From Alicyclobacillus pomorum DSM 14955 (GTDB lineage: Bacteria > Bacillota > Bacilli > Alicyclobacillales > Alicyclobacillaceae), in assembly GCF_000472905.1 (NCBI RefSeq), contig NZ_AXAR01000001.1:274476-328838 (forward strand): a DNA stretch of 54,363 nucleotides, written 5' to 3'. A model generated the notes under the pieces. That model had not been told where the DNA came from, ran no database searches, and worked only from the letters and a program-made list of their open reading frames with translations. Shown in pieces: positions 4,343-31,070 of the stretch. Each line of letters starts with the position of its first letter. Positions within the stretch are counted from its first letter, which is position 1. Both the position numbers and the translations under genes were made by a program.

Positions 4343-5080
4343 TCAGTTGTCTTTGGCGTGTGGTCGGTACACAAACGGTTTTCGCTTTCGTCGACCTGCA
4401 TAAGACTGATGAAACATCTTCAGCAAGGCGCGCTTCTCTAACCTGGATACGTAGGACCTCGAGATACCCAGCGTGTCTGCGACTTCATTCTGGGTCCACT
4501 CTTTGCCATCCGCCAGGCCGAACCGAAGTTCTATGACGCGTCGCTCTCGTTCATCAAGGATGTTCATCAGTTTCATCATATTGGTAATTTCGATGCGCTT
4601 ACTAACCTCTTCCTCTGTGCCGTCGGCATCTGAGCCAAGCACGTCCCCGATGGTGATCTCGTTGCCTTCCTTGTCCGTACCTATGGGACTACTGAGCGAC
4701 ACATCTTTTCTCGTTTTTTTCAACGCGCGCAACTGCATCAGAATCTCATTCTGAATGCACCGTGCTGCGTACGTGGCAAACTTCGTGCCTTTGGTGGGCT
4801 GGAATGTCTCCACCGCTTTGATCAGGCCGACTGTGCCAATGGAAATGAGATCGTCGTGATCTATGCCCGACGAGTCAAACTTTTTTGCGACGTGTGCAAC
4901 GAGTCGGAGGTTGTGCTCAATCAGCGCTTGATATGCGTTGCGGTCCCCATGAAGCCAGCGTTCAAAGTATTCCGCTTCCTGTTTTTTATTTAAAGGTTGC
5001 GGGAATGACTGGTTGACATACCCTGTCACAAGTGCAACATCGCGCACGAGCGACGCTACTGCCAAGGTCAGTGAAAGCAA
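4343..5080 (-). CDS. sigK: Sporulation sigma factor sigma-K (pro-form), uninterrupted
   Basis: A 245-residue sigma-70 family protein closely matching sigma-K. Residues 1-20 are a hydrophobic pro-sequence, followed by FPQPLNKKQEAEYF as at the SpoIVFB cleavage zone. Region 2 carries EHNLRLVAHVAKKF, DLISIGTVGLIKAVETF and KFATYAARCIQNEILMQLR. Region 4 ends in NEVADTLGISRSYVSRLEKRA. It drives late mother-cell genes (coat, cortex, lysis). The gene is continuous, with no skin-type element. The start is TTG, with GGAGG 10 nt upstream inside an 11-bp inverted repeat described separately. It lies downstream of, and in the same direction as, the GH18 gene. Confidence 0.93.
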   Translation of the reverse strand: MLSLTLAVASLVRDVALVTGYVNQSFPQPLNKKQEAEYFERWLHGDRNAYQALIEHNLRLVAHVAKKFDSSGIDHDDLISIGTVGLIKAVETFQPTKGTKFATYAARCIQNEILMQLRALKKTRKDVSLSSPIGTDKEGNEITIGDVLGSDADGTEEEVSKRIEITNMMKLMNILDERERRVIELRFGLADGKEWTQNEVADTLGISRSYVSRLEKRALLKMFHQSYAGRRKRKPFVYRPHAKDN

Positions 5081-5090
5081 GGACAGAACA

Positions 5091-5142
5091 CCTCCGGGCC
5101 ATGTTGCAAGGCAGGATGTAATACCGTATGCTGGCCCGGAGG
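5091..5142 (-). promoter_or_regulatory. Inverted repeat that buries the sigK ribosome-binding site
   Basis: On the sigK strand CCTCCGGGCCA is followed, after a 30-nt spacer, by TGGCCCGGAGG: a perfect GC-rich 11-bp stem. The GGAGG of the 3' arm is the only good Shine-Dalgarno for the TTG start 10 nt further on. If the whole leader is transcribed, the site would be paired with CCUCC. A CATACGGT box resembling a sigma-E/K -10 lies just inside the loop, so transcription could also start inside it and leave out the 5' arm. Confidence 0.6.
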
Positions 5143-5253
5143 GAACGGTGTGTGCGCTTGTGGGGGGATGGTGTACCTGAAGTGGGTAAACCGTGGCGTA
5201 TCGTCATGACCATTGAATGAAAAGGCAACGCAAAGCGTGTAGTCTAGTCGTCC

Positions 5254-6303
5254 TTATCCTGATGATTCGAGGCTCTGTTTCTTATAGGCCTCGACGGCTT
5301 TCCACAGTTCGTCGTTTTCCAGCCCAATTCGCCAGATGGCAATCCCATGCAATCCGTACGCTTTGGCGAGGTTCATCTTATCGGTCAAACTCTGCTGATT
5401 CTCGTAGTAGAATACATAGTCTTTGTTGTTGCTCTGATACGTCGAATATGGTGCATCGTTCACAGTGTCGAAGTGTTCGGTGGCGTGGTACTTCTTGTTG
5501 ACTTTGTCTACGTTGACCAGGCCAACCGCGGTGCCTTTGGAATTCCCCCAAGTATACCCGTACGCGTTGATGCCAAGAAATATCTTGTCCCTCGGAATCA
5601 CGGCGGTCTCGTAGTCGAGGACCGACTTCACCCACCAGGTTGGTGCGACAGCCCCAGGATGGCTCCCCGGATAGGAGTAATCGTACGTCATCAAAACCAC
5701 CTGATCTGCGTTGTCTCCGATTCCTTTTTCCAGTTGGTCGTTTCCGATGGACGGAGAGATAGCGACAGACAAGGAAATACCTCGCTGCTGTGTCTTCTGG
5801 TGCAGTGATTTCAAGAAGTGGACATACGGCATTTCGTCGTTCGGGTGCAGCTGTTCAAAGTCCAACTGAATGCCCGCATAGCCATTCGTTAGAGCCAGTT
5901 TGATTAGATTGTCCTGCAATTTCTTCGATAATGATGCGTCGTGTAAGATATGTCCAATCATTTTCGGGTCAAAGGTTCCGTTTGTCAGATTCTCAACACA
6001 GGCATAACGTAGGATCCCGGTTGCCTTGGGGGCTGTACCTTTGAGGGACCCATCTTTTTGGACTTGAAATGCAACGTCCGACTCCATGTTAATATCGCTT
6101 TTATGCGCCATCATGTCGCGATAGGTATTCGTCTGACTTGCGTAGTCCACCGTGTACACCAACACGTTGGTTTGGTATGGCTTGGATGGATGGCCCGTTG
6201 ACTCACTGGTTTGATCCGGGCGTGCCTTGTTGGACAGCAGAAGTGCCGTGGCCAACACAGTGATGACGGACAGTGGGATGACAAACGATGGAGATTTTTT
6301 CAC
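5254..6303 (-). CDS. Glycoside hydrolase family 18, membrane-anchored, spore/cell-wall type
   Basis: The protein has an N-terminal hydrophobic anchor and then a GH18 barrel of the spore-germination (YaaH/SleL/YdhD-like) type. GYAGIQLDFEQL holds the family's acidic motif with the presumed catalytic Glu, and VVLMTYDYSYPGSHPGAVAP and a final GIAIWRIGLEND strand follow the family order. These enzymes cut N-acetylglucosaminyl bonds in cortex or wall peptidoglycan. I prefer GTG at 6303 (AAAGGTGAT upstream; the protein then begins MKKSPSFVIP, a clean signal anchor). An ATG at 6369 would add 22 residues. No LysM domain is present, unlike YaaH. Upstream of and co-directional with sigK. Confidence 0.85.
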   Translation of the reverse strand: MKKSPSFVIPLSVITVLATALLLSNKARPDQTSESTGHPSKPYQTNVLVYTVDYASQTNTYRDMMAHKSDINMESDVAFQVQKDGSLKGTAPKATGILRYACVENLTNGTFDPKMIGHILHDASLSKKLQDNLIKLALTNGYAGIQLDFEQLHPNDEMPYVHFLKSLHQKTQQRGISLSVAISPSIGNDQLEKGIGDNADQVVLMTYDYSYPGSHPGAVAPTWWVKSVLDYETAVIPRDKIFLGINAYGYTWGNSKGTAVGLVNVDKVNKKYHATEHFDTVNDAPYSTYQSNNKDYVFYYENQQSLTDKMNLAKAYGLHGIAIWRIGLENDELWKAVEAYKKQSLESSG

Positions 6304-21731: not shown

Positions 21732-22271
21732 TTGACAGAGCAGTCTTCTGCCAGCCCGGACGAGTTACGGACGCTTGAACAGTGGATGGAGCAGTACGGC
21801 AGAGATGTGATGAGCACTGCGTACGCCTACGTAAAGAACTATCACCAGGCGCAAGACATCGCCCAGGAAGTTTTTCTTAGAGCCTACACCAAGCGGGATA
21901 CGTTCCGCGGAGAAAGCAGCCTTCGCACGTGGTTGTTGGCCATTACGGCCAATCGCTGCAAGGACTATCTCAGGTCCTGGTCCAAGCGCTACGAAGTCCA
22001 GGATGAGACAGTGTATCACAAAGAAGTTTCAGCGGCCGATACTGAAGGAGAAGTGGTGGCGAAACTGCAACGTGATGCCTTGTGGAACGCGGTCCACCAT
22101 TTGCCGGACAAGTTTCGCGAAGTGATTTCTCTCTATTACATACAGGGTTTGAGCAGTCAGGAGGTCGCCAAGGTGTTGTGCACCACGGAGCAGAACGTTC
22201 GCACGCGATTGCACCGCGGTCGTTTGCTCTTGAAAGAGCGCCTGGCAGAAGGAGGGGAGTCTCGTGCATGA
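21732..22271 (+). CDS. ECF-type RNA polymerase sigma factor (second)
   Basis: A 179-residue SigW/SigM-like factor. Region 2 (about 20-90): AYVKNYHQAQDIAQEVFLRAY and FRGESSLRTWLLAITANRCKDYLR. Region 4 (about 120-172): LPDKFREVISLYYIQGLSSQEVAKVL and TTEQNVRTRLHRGRLLLKERL. Start TTG with GGAGGTGA 7 nt upstream. It overlaps the next gene by 8 nt, so the two are translationally coupled. A GGAAATTTAAC about 80 bp upstream faintly resembles an ECF -35 element and might mean self-activation, but the -10 is not clear. Likely tied to envelope stress by family. Confidence 0.88.
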   Translation: MTEQSSASPDELRTLEQWMEQYGRDVMSTAYAYVKNYHQAQDIAQEVFLRAYTKRDTFRGESSLRTWLLAITANRCKDYLRSWSKRYEVQDETVYHKEVSAADTEGEVVAKLQRDALWNAVHHLPDKFREVISLYYIQGLSSQEVAKVLCTTEQNVRTRLHRGRLLLKERLAEGGESRA

Positions 22272-23226
22272 CGATGACCGCGAATTACGGGAACAGTTTG
22301 CGGAGATCAGTCAAGTTCCGCTGCCTGAGTCTGTAAAACAGGACATTCTACGCAAAGCCGCGGACATGAGGCCCCCTCGCCGACATCGCATGTGGCTTCG
22401 CTCTTTGTTGTCAGGTACTGCGGCCGTCACCGCAGCTGGTGTGCTGGTCTGGGGAGCTTGGTCGTACGGAGGAGGACCCAACGGCACGTCGTCCCACCGG
22501 GCCGATGATGGGAGGACGTTGAATCCGAGCAGTCCCTTCGTTGCGTTGAAAGTGGCCCCTATCAGCGTCGGCTTCGTCACAACTGACAAAGCGTTGAACA
22601 AAGGGATGGTCGAAGCGACCTTGACGAACATGAGTACAGACGTCATCCAGCCCGAGGACGTGGTCGGATTGCTCGTGTTTGAATCCGGAGATCAACCGGA
22701 TTGGCTCGTGGACGCGCGGTGGGCTGCTTTTGTCGATCCGCCGAAACAGCCCTTGAGGCCTGGCGAGTCGTTGACTTGGACGTTCCGCCCGCTTGGCGTT
22801 CCCATGGATGCAAACGGACATTTCCAGGGAAAACCGAAGCTGATGTTTTTGGAACGTGGATTCGTGGAGATGGCCAACGCAGACGTGACGTGGCAAAAGG
22901 CACCGATATCTATATCCGATGTGAGCGTGACGCCCCGATTTCAGTGGGCGAGTGGCAAGTCTTTCGCTGTCAACGCGACGTTGCGGAACACGAGTTCGAC
23001 GCCCATCCGCATCAATGACGTGAAGGCCATCGTCTGGTTTTCTACCTTGCAGTCGGACGATTGGACACAGCCGGGCGCCGTCCGCTTTATGAATCGCTTG
23101 ACCAACGAAGCTTCCCCGGTCGTCCTTGCACCAGGTGCGGCGACTACGGTACATTTTTACCTGATTGGTCCAGCGTCTTTGGACTTGTCCAAGACGCCGG
23201 TTCATTTGTCGCTGATATGGGGATGA
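22264..23226 (+). CDS. Putative anti-sigma/regulatory membrane protein paired with the ECF factor
   Basis: A 320-residue protein with a short cytoplasmic head (1-44, Asp/Glu-rich, no Cys/His pair), one membrane helix (about 46-67) and a ~250-residue outer part. The outer part has two beta-rich segments alike in theme: FVTTDKALNKGMVEATLTNM and RFQWASGKSFAVNATLRNTS. Both look like immunoglobulin-like strands, with LAPGAATTVHF near the end. Position and overlap with the sigma gene suggest an anti-sigma factor, but the zinc signature is absent, so this rests on context. GTG start with GGAGGGGAG 5 nt before it. No catalytic motif seen. Confidence 0.65.
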   Translation: MHDDDRELREQFAEISQVPLPESVKQDILRKAADMRPPRRHRMWLRSLLSGTAAVTAAGVLVWGAWSYGGGPNGTSSHRADDGRTLNPSSPFVALKVAPISVGFVTTDKALNKGMVEATLTNMSTDVIQPEDVVGLLVFESGDQPDWLVDARWAAFVDPPKQPLRPGESLTWTFRPLGVPMDANGHFQGKPKLMFLERGFVEMANADVTWQKAPISISDVSVTPRFQWASGKSFAVNATLRNTSSTPIRINDVKAIVWFSTLQSDDWTQPGAVRFMNRLTNEASPVVLAPGAATTVHFYLIGPASLDLSKTPVHLSLIWG

Positions 23227-23253
23227 TACGCGGGAAAGCGGAGGAAGATAGCA

Positions 23254-23529
23254 ATGACGACGCGATTCAGTCTGGCTGAACTAGCCAACATGTTGCACAC
23301 CACCGTGGAAGCCGTTCGCGCCGCTGTCGATGACCTGTCGAAACGCGGAGAATTAACGGCGGAATCGTTCGAATACGGTTATCGCAATTGGCGGATTGCT
23401 CCGAGCGATACGAAGAAAATTCAAGCGTGGATTGTTCAGAAGGTGGAAAGTGGAGAATTGGAAATTCGGCCACCCGTCCGCAAAATCCGCCGCAAAGAGG
23501 TACTGCCGTCAAACGGTTCGGACACTTGA
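23254..23529 (+). CDS. Small protein with helix-turn-helix-like N-terminus, unknown function
   Basis: A 91-residue basic protein, ATG with GCGGAGGAAG upstream. Residues 5-35 (FSLAELANMLHTTVEAVRAA and the helix after it) look like a winged-helix or MerR-like DNA-binding element that senses no visible ligand. The tail is rich in Lys/Arg (VRKIRRKEV). It follows the putative anti-sigma gene by 27 bp and may be co-transcribed with the sigma pair. I do not recognise a named family; DNA binding is inferred. Confidence 0.6.
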   Translation: MTTRFSLAELANMLHTTVEAVRAAVDDLSKRGELTAESFEYGYRNWRIAPSDTKKIQAWIVQKVESGELEIRPPVRKIRRKEVLPSNGSDT

Positions 23530-23628: not shown

Positions 23629-24744
23629 GTGATTATTGGCGTTCCGAAGGAAATTAAAGACAACGAGTACCGCGTTGCCATCACGCCTGCTGGTGTTCAC
23701 GCACTGGTTGCTGCTGGACATCAGGTGATTGTGGAAACGTCTGCGGGCGAGGGAAGCGGCTTTTCGGACGACGTGTATGTGGCTGCGGGGGCACAAATTG
23801 CGAGTACCGCAGAAGACACGTGGAACAAGTCGGATCTCATTATGAAAGTAAAGGAACCTCTACTCACGGAATACAAGTATTTTCGGTCTGATCTGACATT
23901 GTTCACATATCTTCACTTAGCTCCAGAACCGGAGCTCACGAAGGCGTTGTTGGACTCTGGTATGACGGCCATTGCGTACGAAACGGTTCAACTCGCCGAT
24001 GGCTCTCTACCTTTGTTAACGCCGATGAGTGAAGTCGCTGGCCGCATGTCGATTCAGATTGGCGCGCATTTCCTGGAACAAGCGCACGGCGGCAGGGGAG
24101 AATTGCTCGGGGGAGTACCAGGGGTTCCACCTGCTCGCGTGGTCATTGTCGGCGGTGGTATAGTCGGTACAAACGCAGCTCGAATCGCGCTGGGATTTGG
24201 TGCCGATGTGACCATCCTCGATACCAACGTCAACCGTTTGCGCTATCTTTACGACGTCTTCGGACCTCGCTTGCGTACGGTTGTGTCGAATGGCTACAAT
24301 CTTCAGGCGCACATTGAAGGCTGTGACCTGCTGATTGGTGCCGTTTTGATTCCGGGTGCGAGGGCGCCGAAGATTGTTACGTCCGACATGGTAAAGAGCA
24401 TGAACAAGGGCGCTGTGATTGTAGACCCGGCGATTGACCAGGGTGGATCCATTGAGACCATCGACCGGATCACCACGCACAGCAATCCTACGTATGAGAA
24501 ATACGGCGTGATTCACTATGCCGTCGCCAACATGCCAGGCGCTGTGCCCCGTACGTCCACATTGGCTTTGACCAACGTCACAATTCCATACGCAGTTCAG
24601 TTGGCGAACTACGGTGTGCGTGAGGCGGTTCGCAAGAACGCAGCACTCGCGAAGGGCGTCAATACCATCGCAGGAAAGCTGACGTACGAAGCGGTTGCGA
24701 AAGATCAAGGTCTGCCTTACACACCGCTTTCCGACGTCATTTAG
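23629..24744 (+). CDS. ald: Alanine dehydrogenase
   Basis: A 371-residue NAD-linked enzyme that interconverts alanine and pyruvate plus ammonia. It starts at GTG (AAGGGAGC upstream) with MIIGVPKEIKDNEYRVAITP. It has the pyruvate-site lysine in IMKVKEP and the histidine in YLHLAPEP, the Rossmann motif VVIVGGGIVGTNAARIALG, and VDPAIDQGGSIET. Length matches the family (about 370-378). In sporulating Bacilli it feeds alanine carbon to the TCA cycle during sporulation and helps with germination. Single gene followed by a strong terminator. Confidence 0.95.
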   Translation: MIIGVPKEIKDNEYRVAITPAGVHALVAAGHQVIVETSAGEGSGFSDDVYVAAGAQIASTAEDTWNKSDLIMKVKEPLLTEYKYFRSDLTLFTYLHLAPEPELTKALLDSGMTAIAYETVQLADGSLPLLTPMSEVAGRMSIQIGAHFLEQAHGGRGELLGGVPGVPPARVVIVGGGIVGTNAARIALGFGADVTILDTNVNRLRYLYDVFGPRLRTVVSNGYNLQAHIEGCDLLIGAVLIPGARAPKIVTSDMVKSMNKGAVIVDPAIDQGGSIETIDRITTHSNPTYEKYGVIHYAVANMPGAVPRTSTLALTNVTIPYAVQLANYGVREAVRKNAALAKGVNTIAGKLTYEAVAKDQGLPYTPLSDVI

Positions 24745-24763
24745 ACATCATTCATAGATCCAG

Positions 24764-24808
24764 AACCTGTACGATTCCTGTTATACTAGGGACGTACAGG
24801 TTTTTTTA
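24764..24808 (+). terminator. Rho-independent terminator of ald
   Basis: AACCTGTACG / CGTACAGGTT, 10-bp stem with a 19-nt loop, followed by seven T. The loop contains TTATACT. Confidence 0.85.
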
Positions 24809-24856
24809 TCTTCACGTGTGTAACACTTTGACTGATGGATCAATGGGGTGAAGCAG

Positions 24857-25228
24857 ATGGAACGAATCAAGGGTGTTGCCCTTGTTGTATTGTTACCCCT
24901 TCTGTTAACGGCTTGTGGCCAGAGCGGGGAGAGCGATTCAGTGCCAAGTAACGCACAAAAGATCAACGTCGTCGCTTCCGATTGGAAGTGGACGTTGGAC
25001 AAGACGACGGTAAAGGCCGGCGTGCCGGTGGATTTCCACGTGCAATCGCCGGAAGGCGTACACGGCTTCGAAGTTGTTGGTACGAAGATTAACGTGACGG
25101 TGGCAGAAGGCAAAAACGCCATCGATAAGGTGTGGACATTTGACAAACCCGGCACGTATACCATCGCGTGCAGCCAGTATTGTGGGTCTGGGCACAGCAA
25201 CATGTTCACTCAATTTAAGGTTCAGTAG
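24857..25228 (+). CDS. Free-standing CuA-domain lipoprotein (cytochrome c oxidase subunit II-like)
   Basis: A 123-residue lipoprotein: signal peptide with lipobox LLTAC (Cys20), then one cupredoxin domain. The full CuA ligand set is present: His69 in GVHGF, then C105-SQY-C109-GSG-H113-SN-M116. The domain resembles the soluble part of ba3-type oxidase subunit II (GVHGFEVVGTKINVTV, GTYTIACSQYCGSGH). True subunit II proteins have one or two membrane helices and sit beside subunit I; here neither is seen. It should sit on the outer face of the membrane and carry electrons or copper. ATG chosen because GGGGTGA lies 5 nt upstream; a GTG 9 nt earlier is in frame. Confidence 0.85.
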   Translation: MERIKGVALVVLLPLLLTACGQSGESDSVPSNAQKINVVASDWKWTLDKTTVKAGVPVDFHVQSPEGVHGFEVVGTKINVTVAEGKNAIDKVWTFDKPGTYTIACSQYCGSGHSNMFTQFKVQ

Positions 25229-25320: not shown

Positions 25321-25632
25321 ATGATGGTCACCGAGGAACTGGTACGCGGCATTCTGACCGACGTGTTGGATCCCGAAATTCAAATTGACATTGTCAATCT
25401 CGGCATGGTCTACGGAATTGAGATCTCCGAAGACGGCAAACACGTGAAAGTCATTATGACGTTGACAACGATGGGATGCCCCGCGTTTGACGATATCCAA
25501 GCGCAAGTGATTGAGAAAGTGGAAAGCTTGCCTGGTGTGGAAAAGGCAGAAGTTGAGCTCACGTTTGATCCGCCTTGGGACAAAGAAATGATGTCTGAAG
25601 AGGCGAAACTTGTTTTCAAATACCTGTTCTAA
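25321..25632 (+). CDS. MIP18/DUF59-family protein, SufT/PaaD-like Fe-S assembly factor
   Basis: A 103-residue protein of the MIP18 family: EELVRGILTDVLDPEIQIDI, VNLGMVYGIEI, the conserved Cys in TTMGCPAFDDIQ, and VELTFDPPWDKEMMSEEAK. Members help maturation of Fe-S proteins (SufT, PaaD, CIA2). Its place directly before the suf operon supports this. GGAGG is 5 nt before ATG 25321 (and 8 nt before an ATG one codon later). A long hairpin separates it from sufC, so it is probably a separate transcript. Confidence 0.88.
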   Translation: MMVTEELVRGILTDVLDPEIQIDIVNLGMVYGIEISEDGKHVKVIMTLTTMGCPAFDDIQAQVIEKVESLPGVEKAEVELTFDPPWDKEMMSEEAKLVFKYLF

Positions 25633-25778: not shown

Positions 25779-25789
25779 AAATAAAAAGG

Positions 25790-25804
25790 TGACTAATGTA
25801 GTCA
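25790..25804 (+). promoter_or_regulatory. IscR type-1-like palindrome at the suf transcription start
   Basis: TGACTA-ATG-TAGTCA, perfect 6-bp arms with a 3-bp centre. The published E. coli IscR type-1 core is YGACTR-WWW-YAGTCR; this matches at 14 of 15 positions. Placed at the presumed start site it would block RNA polymerase. The likely binder is the Rrf2/IscR-like protein encoded at 31544. Confidence 0.6.
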
Positions 25805-25845
25805 ACATTACGACAGAGATTCACGCTGGGAAAGGTTGGTCAGAC

Positions 25846-26631
25846 ATGGCATCCCCACATTTGAAAATTGACGGACTGAAAGTCTCTATCGAAGATAAGC
25901 AAATTGTCCGAGGTTTGGACCTCGAAGTTAAAGGCGGAGAGATTCACGCCATCATGGGACCGAACGGAACCGGAAAGAGTACATTGGCATCTGCGCTAAT
26001 GGGCCATCCGGCGTATGACGTGACAGGCGGCACTGTCACTTTGGATGGACAAGACTTGCTGGAAATGTCCGTCGATGAACGTGCTCGCGCCGGATTGTTC
26101 CTGGCCATGCAGTACCCTGCTGAAGTTCCGGGTGTATCCAACGCCAATTTCATACGTACGGCATTAAACGCGCGACTTGGGGAAGGCAACGAAGTGCCGG
26201 TCATTAAGTTCCATCGGCAACTTCAGGAGAAGATGAAGTCACTGAACATCGACCCTGTGTTCGCTGAACGGTATTTAAATGAAGGGTTTTCGGGCGGAGA
26301 AAAGAAGCGCAATGAGATTTTGCAAATGAGCATGTTGAACCCGCGCATTGTCATTCTCGACGAGATTGACTCGGGTCTCGACATCGACGCATTGAAAATC
26401 GTGGCGAAAGCCGTGAACGATTTGCGTTCTCCAGAAGTTGGATTCCTGATTATCACGCACTATCAGCGGTTGCTCGAGTACATTGTTCCGGACTACGTGC
26501 ACGTGATGATGCAGGGTCGCATCGTTCGTTCAGGTGGCCGTGAATTGGCTGAAAAGTTGGAAGCCCAAGGCTACGATTGGTTGAAACAGGAACTTGGCAT
26601 TGAAGATGAAACTGTCGGGGCGGAAGCGTAA
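25846..26631 (+). CDS. sufC: Fe-S cluster assembly ATPase SufC
   Basis: A 261-residue ABC-type ATPase that powers the SufBCD scaffold. Walker A GPNGTGKST, Q-loop region AMQYPAEVPGVS, signature GFSGGEKKRNEILQMSML, Walker B RIVILDEIDSGLD, and switch His in IITHYQRLL. The SufC-type FSGGEKKR signature is diagnostic. Start ATG 25846 (AAAGGTTGG upstream). A GTG at 25789 in frame would start in the operator with almost no leader and add 19 unconserved residues, so I reject it. First gene of sufCDSUB. Confidence 0.95.
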   Translation: MASPHLKIDGLKVSIEDKQIVRGLDLEVKGGEIHAIMGPNGTGKSTLASALMGHPAYDVTGGTVTLDGQDLLEMSVDERARAGLFLAMQYPAEVPGVSNANFIRTALNARLGEGNEVPVIKFHRQLQEKMKSLNIDPVFAERYLNEGFSGGEKKRNEILQMSMLNPRIVILDEIDSGLDIDALKIVAKAVNDLRSPEVGFLIITHYQRLLEYIVPDYVHVMMQGRIVRSGGRELAEKLEAQGYDWLKQELGIEDETVGAEA

Positions 26632-26644
26632 GGAGGACGGATCC

Positions 26645-29578
<2,934 letters not shown>

Positions 29579-29672
29579 GACCGCTTCGGCGGTGCCGGAC
29601 AGACGGATTCGATACAGAAGTTGGATTTGAGAACATCCGCAAGACCACCGACATAAAGGAGGTAGAACGCAC

Positions 29673-31070
29673 ATGGCAAAGCCGTTGCCCGAGATTGAAG
29701 AGTATCAATACGGTTTTCGCGACAAGGATGTATCTGTCGTCAAGTTCCAGAAGGGGCTGTCGCGGAAAGTTGTTGAAGAGATTTCCATGATGAAGAACGA
29801 ACCGGGGTGGATGACCGATTTTCGCCTGCGTTCTCTAGACATTTTTTACGAAAAAGCGATGCCGAATTGGGGCGGAGACCTGTCGGATCTGAATTTTGAC
29901 GACATCACGTACTACGTCAAACCGTCGGAAAAGCAGGGAAAGACGTGGGATGAGGTGCCTGAGGAGATCAAGAAGACGTTTGACCGACTCGGCATCCCCG
30001 AAGCGGAACAGAAGTTCCTGGCCGGCGTATCCGCTCAGTACGAGTCCGAAGTAGTGTACCATTCGATGCGTGAAGATCTGGAGAAGCTCGGCATTCTCTT
30101 CATGGACACCGACACAGCCCTACGCGAACACCCGGAGATCTTCAAGGAGTATTTTGGCACGGTCATTCCGCCAGAAGACAACAAGTTTGCAGCGTTGAAC
30201 AGCGCGGTTTGGAGCGGCGGCAGTTTCATCTACGTGCCGAAAGGCGTGAAGTGCGAAATTCCGTTGCAGGCGTACTTCCGCATTAACTCCGAGAATATGG
30301 GACAGTTTGAACGTACGCTGATTATTTGCGACGAAGATAGCCAAGTGCACTATGTCGAAGGATGTACCGCGCCAATATACAGCACGAACTCGCTTCACAG
30401 TGCAGTCGTTGAAATCATCGTGAAAGACCGAGCTACGTGTCGCTACACCACCATCCAGAACTGGGCGCCGAACATTTACAACCTGGTGACGAAACGTGCC
30501 GTAGCGTACAAGGACGCGACCATGGAGTGGATTGACGGCAATATCGGATCCAAGTTGACCATGAAATACCCATCTGTCTACATGCAGGGCGAAGGTGCCA
30601 AGGCGATGGTGCTCTCCATCGCTGTCGCGGGCCGCGGTCAGCATCAGGATGCCGGTGCAAAAGTCGTTCACAATGCACCCAATACGTCTTCGACCATTGT
30701 TTCCAAATCCATCAGTAAGCACGGCGGTAAGACGACCTACCGCGGTTTGGCTAGCTTCGGTCCGAATGCACGCAACGCGAAAGCCAATATCAAGTGCGAT
30801 ACGTTGATTCTGGACGACGACTCCACGTCAGACACGATTCCATATAACGAAATCATGAACGACGACGTGGTTCTGGAACACGAGGCCAGCGTGTCCAAAG
30901 TCAGCGAAGAACAGCTGTTCTACTTGATGAGCCGGGGCATCTCGGAAGAAGATGCAACGCGCATGATTGTCATGGGCTTCATCGAGCCGTTCACCCGCGA
31001 GCTGCCAATGGAATACGCTGTGGAGATGAACCGCTTGATCAAGTTTGAAATGGAAGGTTCCATCGGTTAA
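29673..31070 (+). CDS. sufB: Fe-S cluster assembly scaffold SufB
   Basis: A 465-residue SufB. The characteristic start region [20 protein letters not shown] is followed by [54 protein letters not shown] with the cluster-related Cys, [35 protein letters not shown] and [21 protein letters not shown]. It holds the nascent cluster in the SufBC2D complex. ATG with AAAGGAGG 9 nt upstream; a 94-nt gap after sufU contains a small GACCGC/GCGGT hairpin but no terminator, so it should be in the same operon. Confidence 0.95.

Follow-up and report, generated by a model that had tools for sequence, protein, structure and literature searches.

CuA centres are established electron-transfer sites, known as a fixed part of oxidases, of the related nitric oxide reductases and of nitrous oxide reductase. 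The available sections of a paper on Bacillus denitrification likewise treat CuA in oxidase-type, NOR-type and nitrous oxide reductase proteins (PMC3475470). The closest described lipoprotein with a CuA site is CtaC of the Bacillus subtilis caa3 oxidase (PMC9145763) which, unlike the protein presented below, spans the membrane, carries a cytochrome c domain and serves as an oxidase subunit, according to the accessible parts of two articles (PMC9145763, PMC13068155). PCuAC, CtaK (YtkA) and Sco are further extracytoplasmic copper proteins and some of them are lipoproteins (accessible parts of PMC9145763 and PMC13068155); the available sections of PMC9145763 review how Sco assembles CuA together with PCuAC or CtaK, and also cover the lipoprotein nature of CtaC. 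CupA of Streptococcus pneumoniae is another membrane-anchored cupredoxin fold with a binuclear copper site, but it acts inside the cell, where it supplies the exporter CopA with Cu(I), and uses its own two-site ligand set (available portion of PMC7558416). In its accessible part, a description of the Parageobacillus lipoproteome lists CtaC, QoxA, a c-551, Sco and CtaK, with no CuA protein that stands alone among them (PMC13068155). Here we describe a CuA domain freed from its enzyme, a family which is new in that we found no description of a stand-alone CuA lipoprotein family in the open-access literature.

The gene is located in a window of 54,363 nucleotides, the whole stretch of DNA analysed (C1:274476-328838 of Alicyclobacillus pomorum DSM 14955; Table 1). 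Its product is a lipoprotein with all of the CuA side-chain ligands, for which copper binding is predicted from the sequence. The N-terminus reads MERIKG, with a possible alternative GTG start at 24848 (9 bases upstream), the signal peptide ends in LTAC20 and a single cupredoxin domain follows, with no helix predicted after the lipobox. The translated frame places C20, H61, H69, C105, C109, H113 and M116 at these numbers and contains the His ... CxxxCxxxHxxM ligand set of a CuA domain. Across 18 aligned members, including this protein, residues C20, W45, H69, C105, C109, H113 and M116 are invariant, and Gln107 stands at what we take to be the place of the backbone-carbonyl ligand, as in ba3. 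Since the best phmmer matches among solved structures are also subunit II CuA domains (2lln, 2.4e-16; 2cua from the Thermus ba3 oxidase, 2.8e-16), the ligand match is not a matter of chance. The export lipobox sets the protein apart from CupA by description and not by sequence.

Table 1. Coordinates of the CuA lipoprotein gene, its key residues and its neighbours in the window.
Feature	Coordinates	Strand	Remarks
Stand-alone CuA lipoprotein gene	24857..25228	+	123 aa
Lipobox cysteine C20 (LTAC), predicted lipid anchor	24914..24916	+	Invariant in 18/18 aligned members
His69, CuA ligand	25061..25063	+	
CuA loop CSQYCGSGHSNM: Cys105, Cys109, His113, Met116	25169..25204	+	
ald, alanine dehydrogenase, upstream neighbour	23629..24744	+	PF01262, PF05222
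Terminator-like hairpin into T run	24762..24804	+	Between ald and the CuA gene
sufT-like FeS_assembly_P gene	25324..25632	+	PF01883; 95 bp downstream of the CuA gene
suf genes: sufC, sufD, sufS, sufU-like, sufB	25789..31070	+	sufU-like by reading only

The protein scores 27.1 bits against Cupredoxin_1 in Pfam (cut-off 27), in an alignment that stops at column 113 of 130, shortly after the first of the CuA cysteines, and leaves the CuA loop unmatched. The scores against COX2 (PF00116; 20.5 bits versus 22) and TIGR02866 (41.8 versus 147.7) are below the cut-offs, and none of the NCBIfam models listed reaches its own. A model built with AlphaFold2 from 11 sequences has block pLDDT values of 96-98 over residues 31-123 and matches 2cua_A (Foldseek E 4.9e-10; VIA Z 13.6, rmsd 1.9 Å over 94 residues, 37% identity). 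This predicted structure has the cupredoxin fold of CuA domains. Its matches to nitrous oxide reductase and to other subunit II chains (Z 11-13) show a common fold for the model and not a common function, and Cupredoxin_1 of Bacillus anthracis (4hcf), likewise a Bacilli cupredoxin of similar size, gives Z 12.0 at 17% identity.

Several identities were considered and rejected. A cytochrome c oxidase subunit II would be expected to pass the family cut-offs, to have a transmembrane helix or hairpin and to be paired with subunit I, and nitrous oxide reductase joins a beta-propeller to its CuA domain; this protein has one domain in 123 residues and none of those features. Sco proteins have a thioredoxin fold with CXXXC...H in place of the cupredoxin fold predicted here. 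The PCuAC motif H(M)X10MX21HXM, as given in the available part of PMC9145763, is absent, methionine occurring at positions 1 and 116 only. The initial annotation had described a short lipoprotein with a complete CuA ligand set and no membrane helices, flanked by ald and a SufT-like gene and nearest in pattern to ba3-type subunit II. The 123-residue translation and the 18-member alignment bear out the ligand set, the prediction of no helix beyond the lipobox agrees with the second point, and the Pfam matches in Table 1 confirm the flanks; the likeness to ba3 is upheld by the fold match to 2cua and by a tree in which ba3 rows stand beside the lipoproteins (below).

A protein search matched 38 of 61 related genomes. 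The CuA lipoprotein itself is carried by 25 genomes of the two nearest families and by one elsewhere in the class (G057), the remaining matches being oxidase subunits or weak. Named carriers are Alicyclobacillus contaminans, macrosporangiidus, herbarius, shizuokensis, kakegawensis and suci, and Paenibacillus lutrae. A broader profile, run over an even sample of 398 Bacilli genomes, gives lipoprotein-type matches in at least 110 of them (judged by match range, not all being fetched), with 20 families among the matches listed. Of 61 HMM-selected loci, L178 proved to be an oxidase subunit and the sequence of L201 was masked; all ligands are retained in the remaining 59, with an exact CxxxCxxxHxxM in 55 (the broken copy L207 among them) and a loop two residues longer in four. 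A lipobox lies within the matched stretch at 57 of the 61 loci, L201 included, and in the full frame of L203 and L211, and the hydrophobicity limit outside the signal peptide is exceeded only by the true oxidase subunit L178.

When 124 CuA domains were placed in a tree, the 85 from lipoproteins grouped in one clade (99/90; 98% of 200 bootstrap trees), with 8 ba3 rows as its neighbours (100/98 for the two combined) and with aa3 and caa3 standing apart. Given 92 alignment columns, a midpoint root and a long-branch warning from the program (for L204 and L205 among others), the inner branching is weak. The A. pomorum protein, with its lipobox and single CuA domain, falls inside the lipoprotein clade. 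Compared with the CuA domain of Thermus ba3 subunit II (2cua, 1ehk), it shares the cupredoxin fold and the order and spacing of the ligands, but has a lipid anchor in place of a transmembrane helix, no subunit I, and a separate place in the tree. The middle residue of CxxxC also differs: 75 of 89 lipoprotein rows have V or I there and 7 have Q (this protein among them), whereas all 41 subunit II rows have E or Q, a count from which 7 rows of the subunit II list were dropped as lipoproteins or a chance frame and in which some rows repeat a genome. The protein matched 53 plasmid records, all at less than 60% identity, and where one of the 20 listed records had an annotated gene, it was named subunit II or cytochrome B5. 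A copper-island member (see below) used as a plasmid query gave no match. Two partial matches in viral contigs (residues 16-45, outside the CuA loop) were set aside.

We then compared the protein with the respiratory genes of its own genome, in which four subunit I (PF00115) and four subunit II (PF00116) matches form four adjacent pairs. All four COX1 matches lie outside the window, which contains no subunit I. One pair, at C1:186.8-188.6 kb on the same contig, is of the CuA type with its own subunit II; the subunit II genes of the other three have, by reading, no cysteine motif. The CuA-type subunit II, CtaC, is a protein of 222 residues that lacks both a heme c motif and a fused cytochrome c domain; nothing else in the genome matched the lipoprotein. 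There is no orphan subunit I, since each of the four found is paired with another subunit II, and an orphan oxidase partner is rejected on this basis. The initial annotation had presented the protein as lacking an oxidase and had suggested an electron carrier to a distant one, to be sought as a subunit I without its own subunit II. It was right that no subunit I is nearby, but a CuA-type CtaCD oxidase does exist about 112 kb away; the electron carrier is still a live proposal, as is the copper-protein role suggested alongside it, but the oxidase in need of a subunit II has dropped out. An inactive duplicate of an oxidase subunit, its other concern, is rejected by the tree and by ligand conservation: CtaC is only 33% identical and the lipoproteins are a separate clade. 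One multicopper oxidase domain is matched four times, at two places in the genome, which also has four Sco matches above cut-off, two of which are adjacent fragments. The Sco match at G000:C4:37315-37711 (L122) is split over two frames and is possibly a frameshifted gene.

The best reading of these data, to which we give a probability of about 0.45, is a lipid-tethered CuA electron carrier for extracytoplasmic copper oxidases. It builds on the lipobox, the conserved ligand set, the predicted CuA fold, the lack of a transmembrane part and of an orphan partner, and the separate clade. A CuA site that is kept in full is best explained by electron transfer. The one-domain protein, tethered by lipid on the outer face of the membrane, would be a mobile one-electron carrier and would correspond, as a copper protein, to the small cytochrome c lipoprotein of Bacilli. 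The copper loading, redox activity and partners that we infer are these: two copper ions would be bound as a mixed-valence CuA site, electrons would be taken from the bc complex and cytochrome c pool, or from another extracytoplasmic reductant where this is missing, and they would be passed to membrane-attached copper oxidases. In A. pomorum the acceptor may be the CtaCD oxidase, whose subunit II has no fused cytochrome c domain; in other genomes, ba3 oxidases or lipid-anchored multicopper oxidases may take its place. Candidate components of such a chain are encoded in the A. pomorum genome: QcrB, a QcrC-like protein that bears a heme c motif, a small cytochrome c whose lipobox was recognised by reading, and the CtaC without a heme c motif.

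The company kept by the gene in other genomes was assessed in 55 genomes of the two nearest families (25 carriers and 30 non-carriers), with statistics that ignore kinship. Cytochrome c (PF13442) was found in 19/25 carriers versus 7/30 non-carriers (Fisher 1.3e-4) and QcrB in 16/25 versus 7/30 (p 0.003). CuA-type subunit II was only weakly associated (18/25 versus 14/30, p 0.10), in a count that leaves out one region of G050 and in which one carrier (G014) and seven motif-less non-carriers were judged from the match range or the lack of a match. Multicopper oxidases, as a class, showed no association (PF07732, 18/25 versus 18/30, p 0.4) and are not supported as a general partner. The cytochrome c, QcrB and PF07732 results keep their direction in genomes at least 90% complete. 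Two carriers (G021 and G027, the latter 72% complete) have a CuA-type CtaC and no cytochrome c by PF13442.

Neighbours were read by eye, from sequence starts, at 88 lipoprotein loci. Outside the suf loci described below most are unrelated housekeeping genes, with no recurrent operon partner among the loci read beyond a few copper enzymes. Two loci in different families (L195 and L199) immediately adjoin the subunit II and I genes of a ba3-type oxidase. In three lineages the neighbour is a laccase-type oxidase in which a lipobox was read: L054 (A. suci) and L055 are convergent with a 457-residue protein in which a blue-copper-like domain is joined to a two-domain laccase with HWHG and HCH motifs, L197 is divergent from such an oxidase, and the third lineage is that of the copper island (L180 and L185). 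As a rough guide, 0.06 adjacent multicopper oxidases would be expected and 3 were seen, and 0.02 ba3 pairs would be expected and 2 were seen, on an estimate that assumes 40 lineages, 4000 genes per genome and copy numbers, all chosen after seeing the data. Among members with a longer loop, L174 has a ba3 pair about 2 kb away, L209 adjoins a cytochrome c lipoprotein, and L204 adjoins a multicopper-oxidase gene read in two frames and has a nitrate reductase gene in its vicinity.

Both the association with cytochrome c and the presence of ba3 or multicopper-oxidase genes next to some copies agree with a carrier that serves several acceptors, and the cytochrome c lipoprotein beside L209 also speaks for it. 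Against an electron carrier, A. suci (G035) and G036 keep the protein where QcrB, cytochrome c (PF13442) and a CuA oxidase were not detected; G044 and G048 have cytochrome c, but neither a CuA nor a multicopper oxidase was found in them, and no one partner co-occurs with the protein everywhere. A bolder version of the proposal, which we regard as doubtful, is that these proteins are an unrecognised class of mobile CuA carrier which, instead of or beside cytochrome c, would wire the outer face of the membrane to several copper oxidases, and which in species like A. suci, with no cytochrome c or bc complex detected, would feed a laccase-type lipoprotein.

Copper handling is a close and credible rival, ranked below the electron carrier, and one protein may do both. 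An outer-surface lipoprotein of this kind would capture Cu(I) and either buffer it or deliver it to cuproenzymes or to detoxification; the recipients would be the multicopper oxidase and the CuA and CuB sites of oxidases, in a role comparable to those of PCuAC, CtaK and CupA. In one genus, L180 and L185 (G299 and G217) are flanked by a CueO-like multicopper oxidase on one side and CopA-CopZ-CsoR on the other, accompanied by DUF1541 and DUF326 genes, and a third genome of the genus (G395) has the island with a broken copy of the gene. This copy (L207, ~5046-5303) has one TAG inside and is situated between the multicopper oxidase and copA. Two further lineages also have a multicopper oxidase beside the lipoprotein gene, copper enzymes make up most of the special neighbours outside suf, and in A. 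suci the protein is present without any detected electron partner. On the other side, a real copper-resistance island is confined to one genus, and most of the 88 loci have unrelated neighbours. Moreover, we know of no copper chaperone that keeps an intact six-ligand CuA site.

Linkage to the suf genes also bears on copper handling. Within its own family the gene adjoins sufT and the suf genes in 13 of 17 carrying relatives, mostly just upstream as in the window, and ald precedes it in 12 of these 13. The gap to the sufT match is 21-147 bp, with no T-run terminator, at 13 of 14 loci checked (window included), the exception being L052 (613 bp and a possible T-run terminator). A scan of the window likewise found no terminator between the two genes, and a promoter scan found none. 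The hairpin upstream of the gene is stable (-23.2 kcal/mol, z -5.5, 0/200 shuffles as good) and, by a crude test, a comparable structure precedes the gene at 5/13 loci; the terminator pattern scan missed this hairpin and gave one site inside the gene (24868-24884; 0.7 expected by chance). The CuA lipoprotein gene is probably the first gene of the suf transcript. In B. subtilis, Cu(I) stress targets Fe-S enzymes, as reported in the accessible part of PMC4554457, and the suf linkage, the copper island and the A. suci case together fit copper handling. The presence of the family in 20 families of the sample would mean either a missing electron carrier of Gram-positive respiration or a new use of CuA in copper homeostasis. 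The order of the genes ahead of ald (21732-23529) is conserved as well: a sigma-70 family factor, a protein without a Pfam family and a small unknown protein are found in 10, 11 and 13 of 13 syntenic relatives, respectively. A CopZ-like heavy-metal-associated protein (PF00403; 53941-54165) is encoded near the end of the window, about 29 kb from the CuA gene.

A helper of cytochrome c oxidase, acting as an assembly template or as a loosely bound extra electron-entry domain of CtaC/CtaD or ba3, is unlikely. The ba3 pairs at L195, L199 and L174 and the kinship to ba3 subunit II would suit such a role, but G035, G036, G044 and G048 (91-99% complete) have no CuA motif in the subunit II regions examined, G003, G006, G018 and G024 have a CuA subunit II without the lipoprotein, and the A. 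pomorum genome offers no orphan subunit I. Cell-surface sensing of redox state, copper or nitric oxide, or a site that no longer binds copper, is very improbable, given that the ligands are conserved across 20 families and the protein has no signalling domain, even if most loci are single genes without a recurring partner and L174 and L204 are, by reading, near apparent two-component systems.

The members with the longer loop (CxxxC-x5-HxxM; L204, L205, L209 and L174) may represent a different copper site, and some are near genes for nitrate reductase, a multicopper oxidase, cytochrome c or an apparent two-component system. One genome (G009) has two copies of the lipoprotein gene (L048 and L067), one of them in two frames, and each lies within about 3-8 kb of what appear by eye to be cydAB and cydDC genes.
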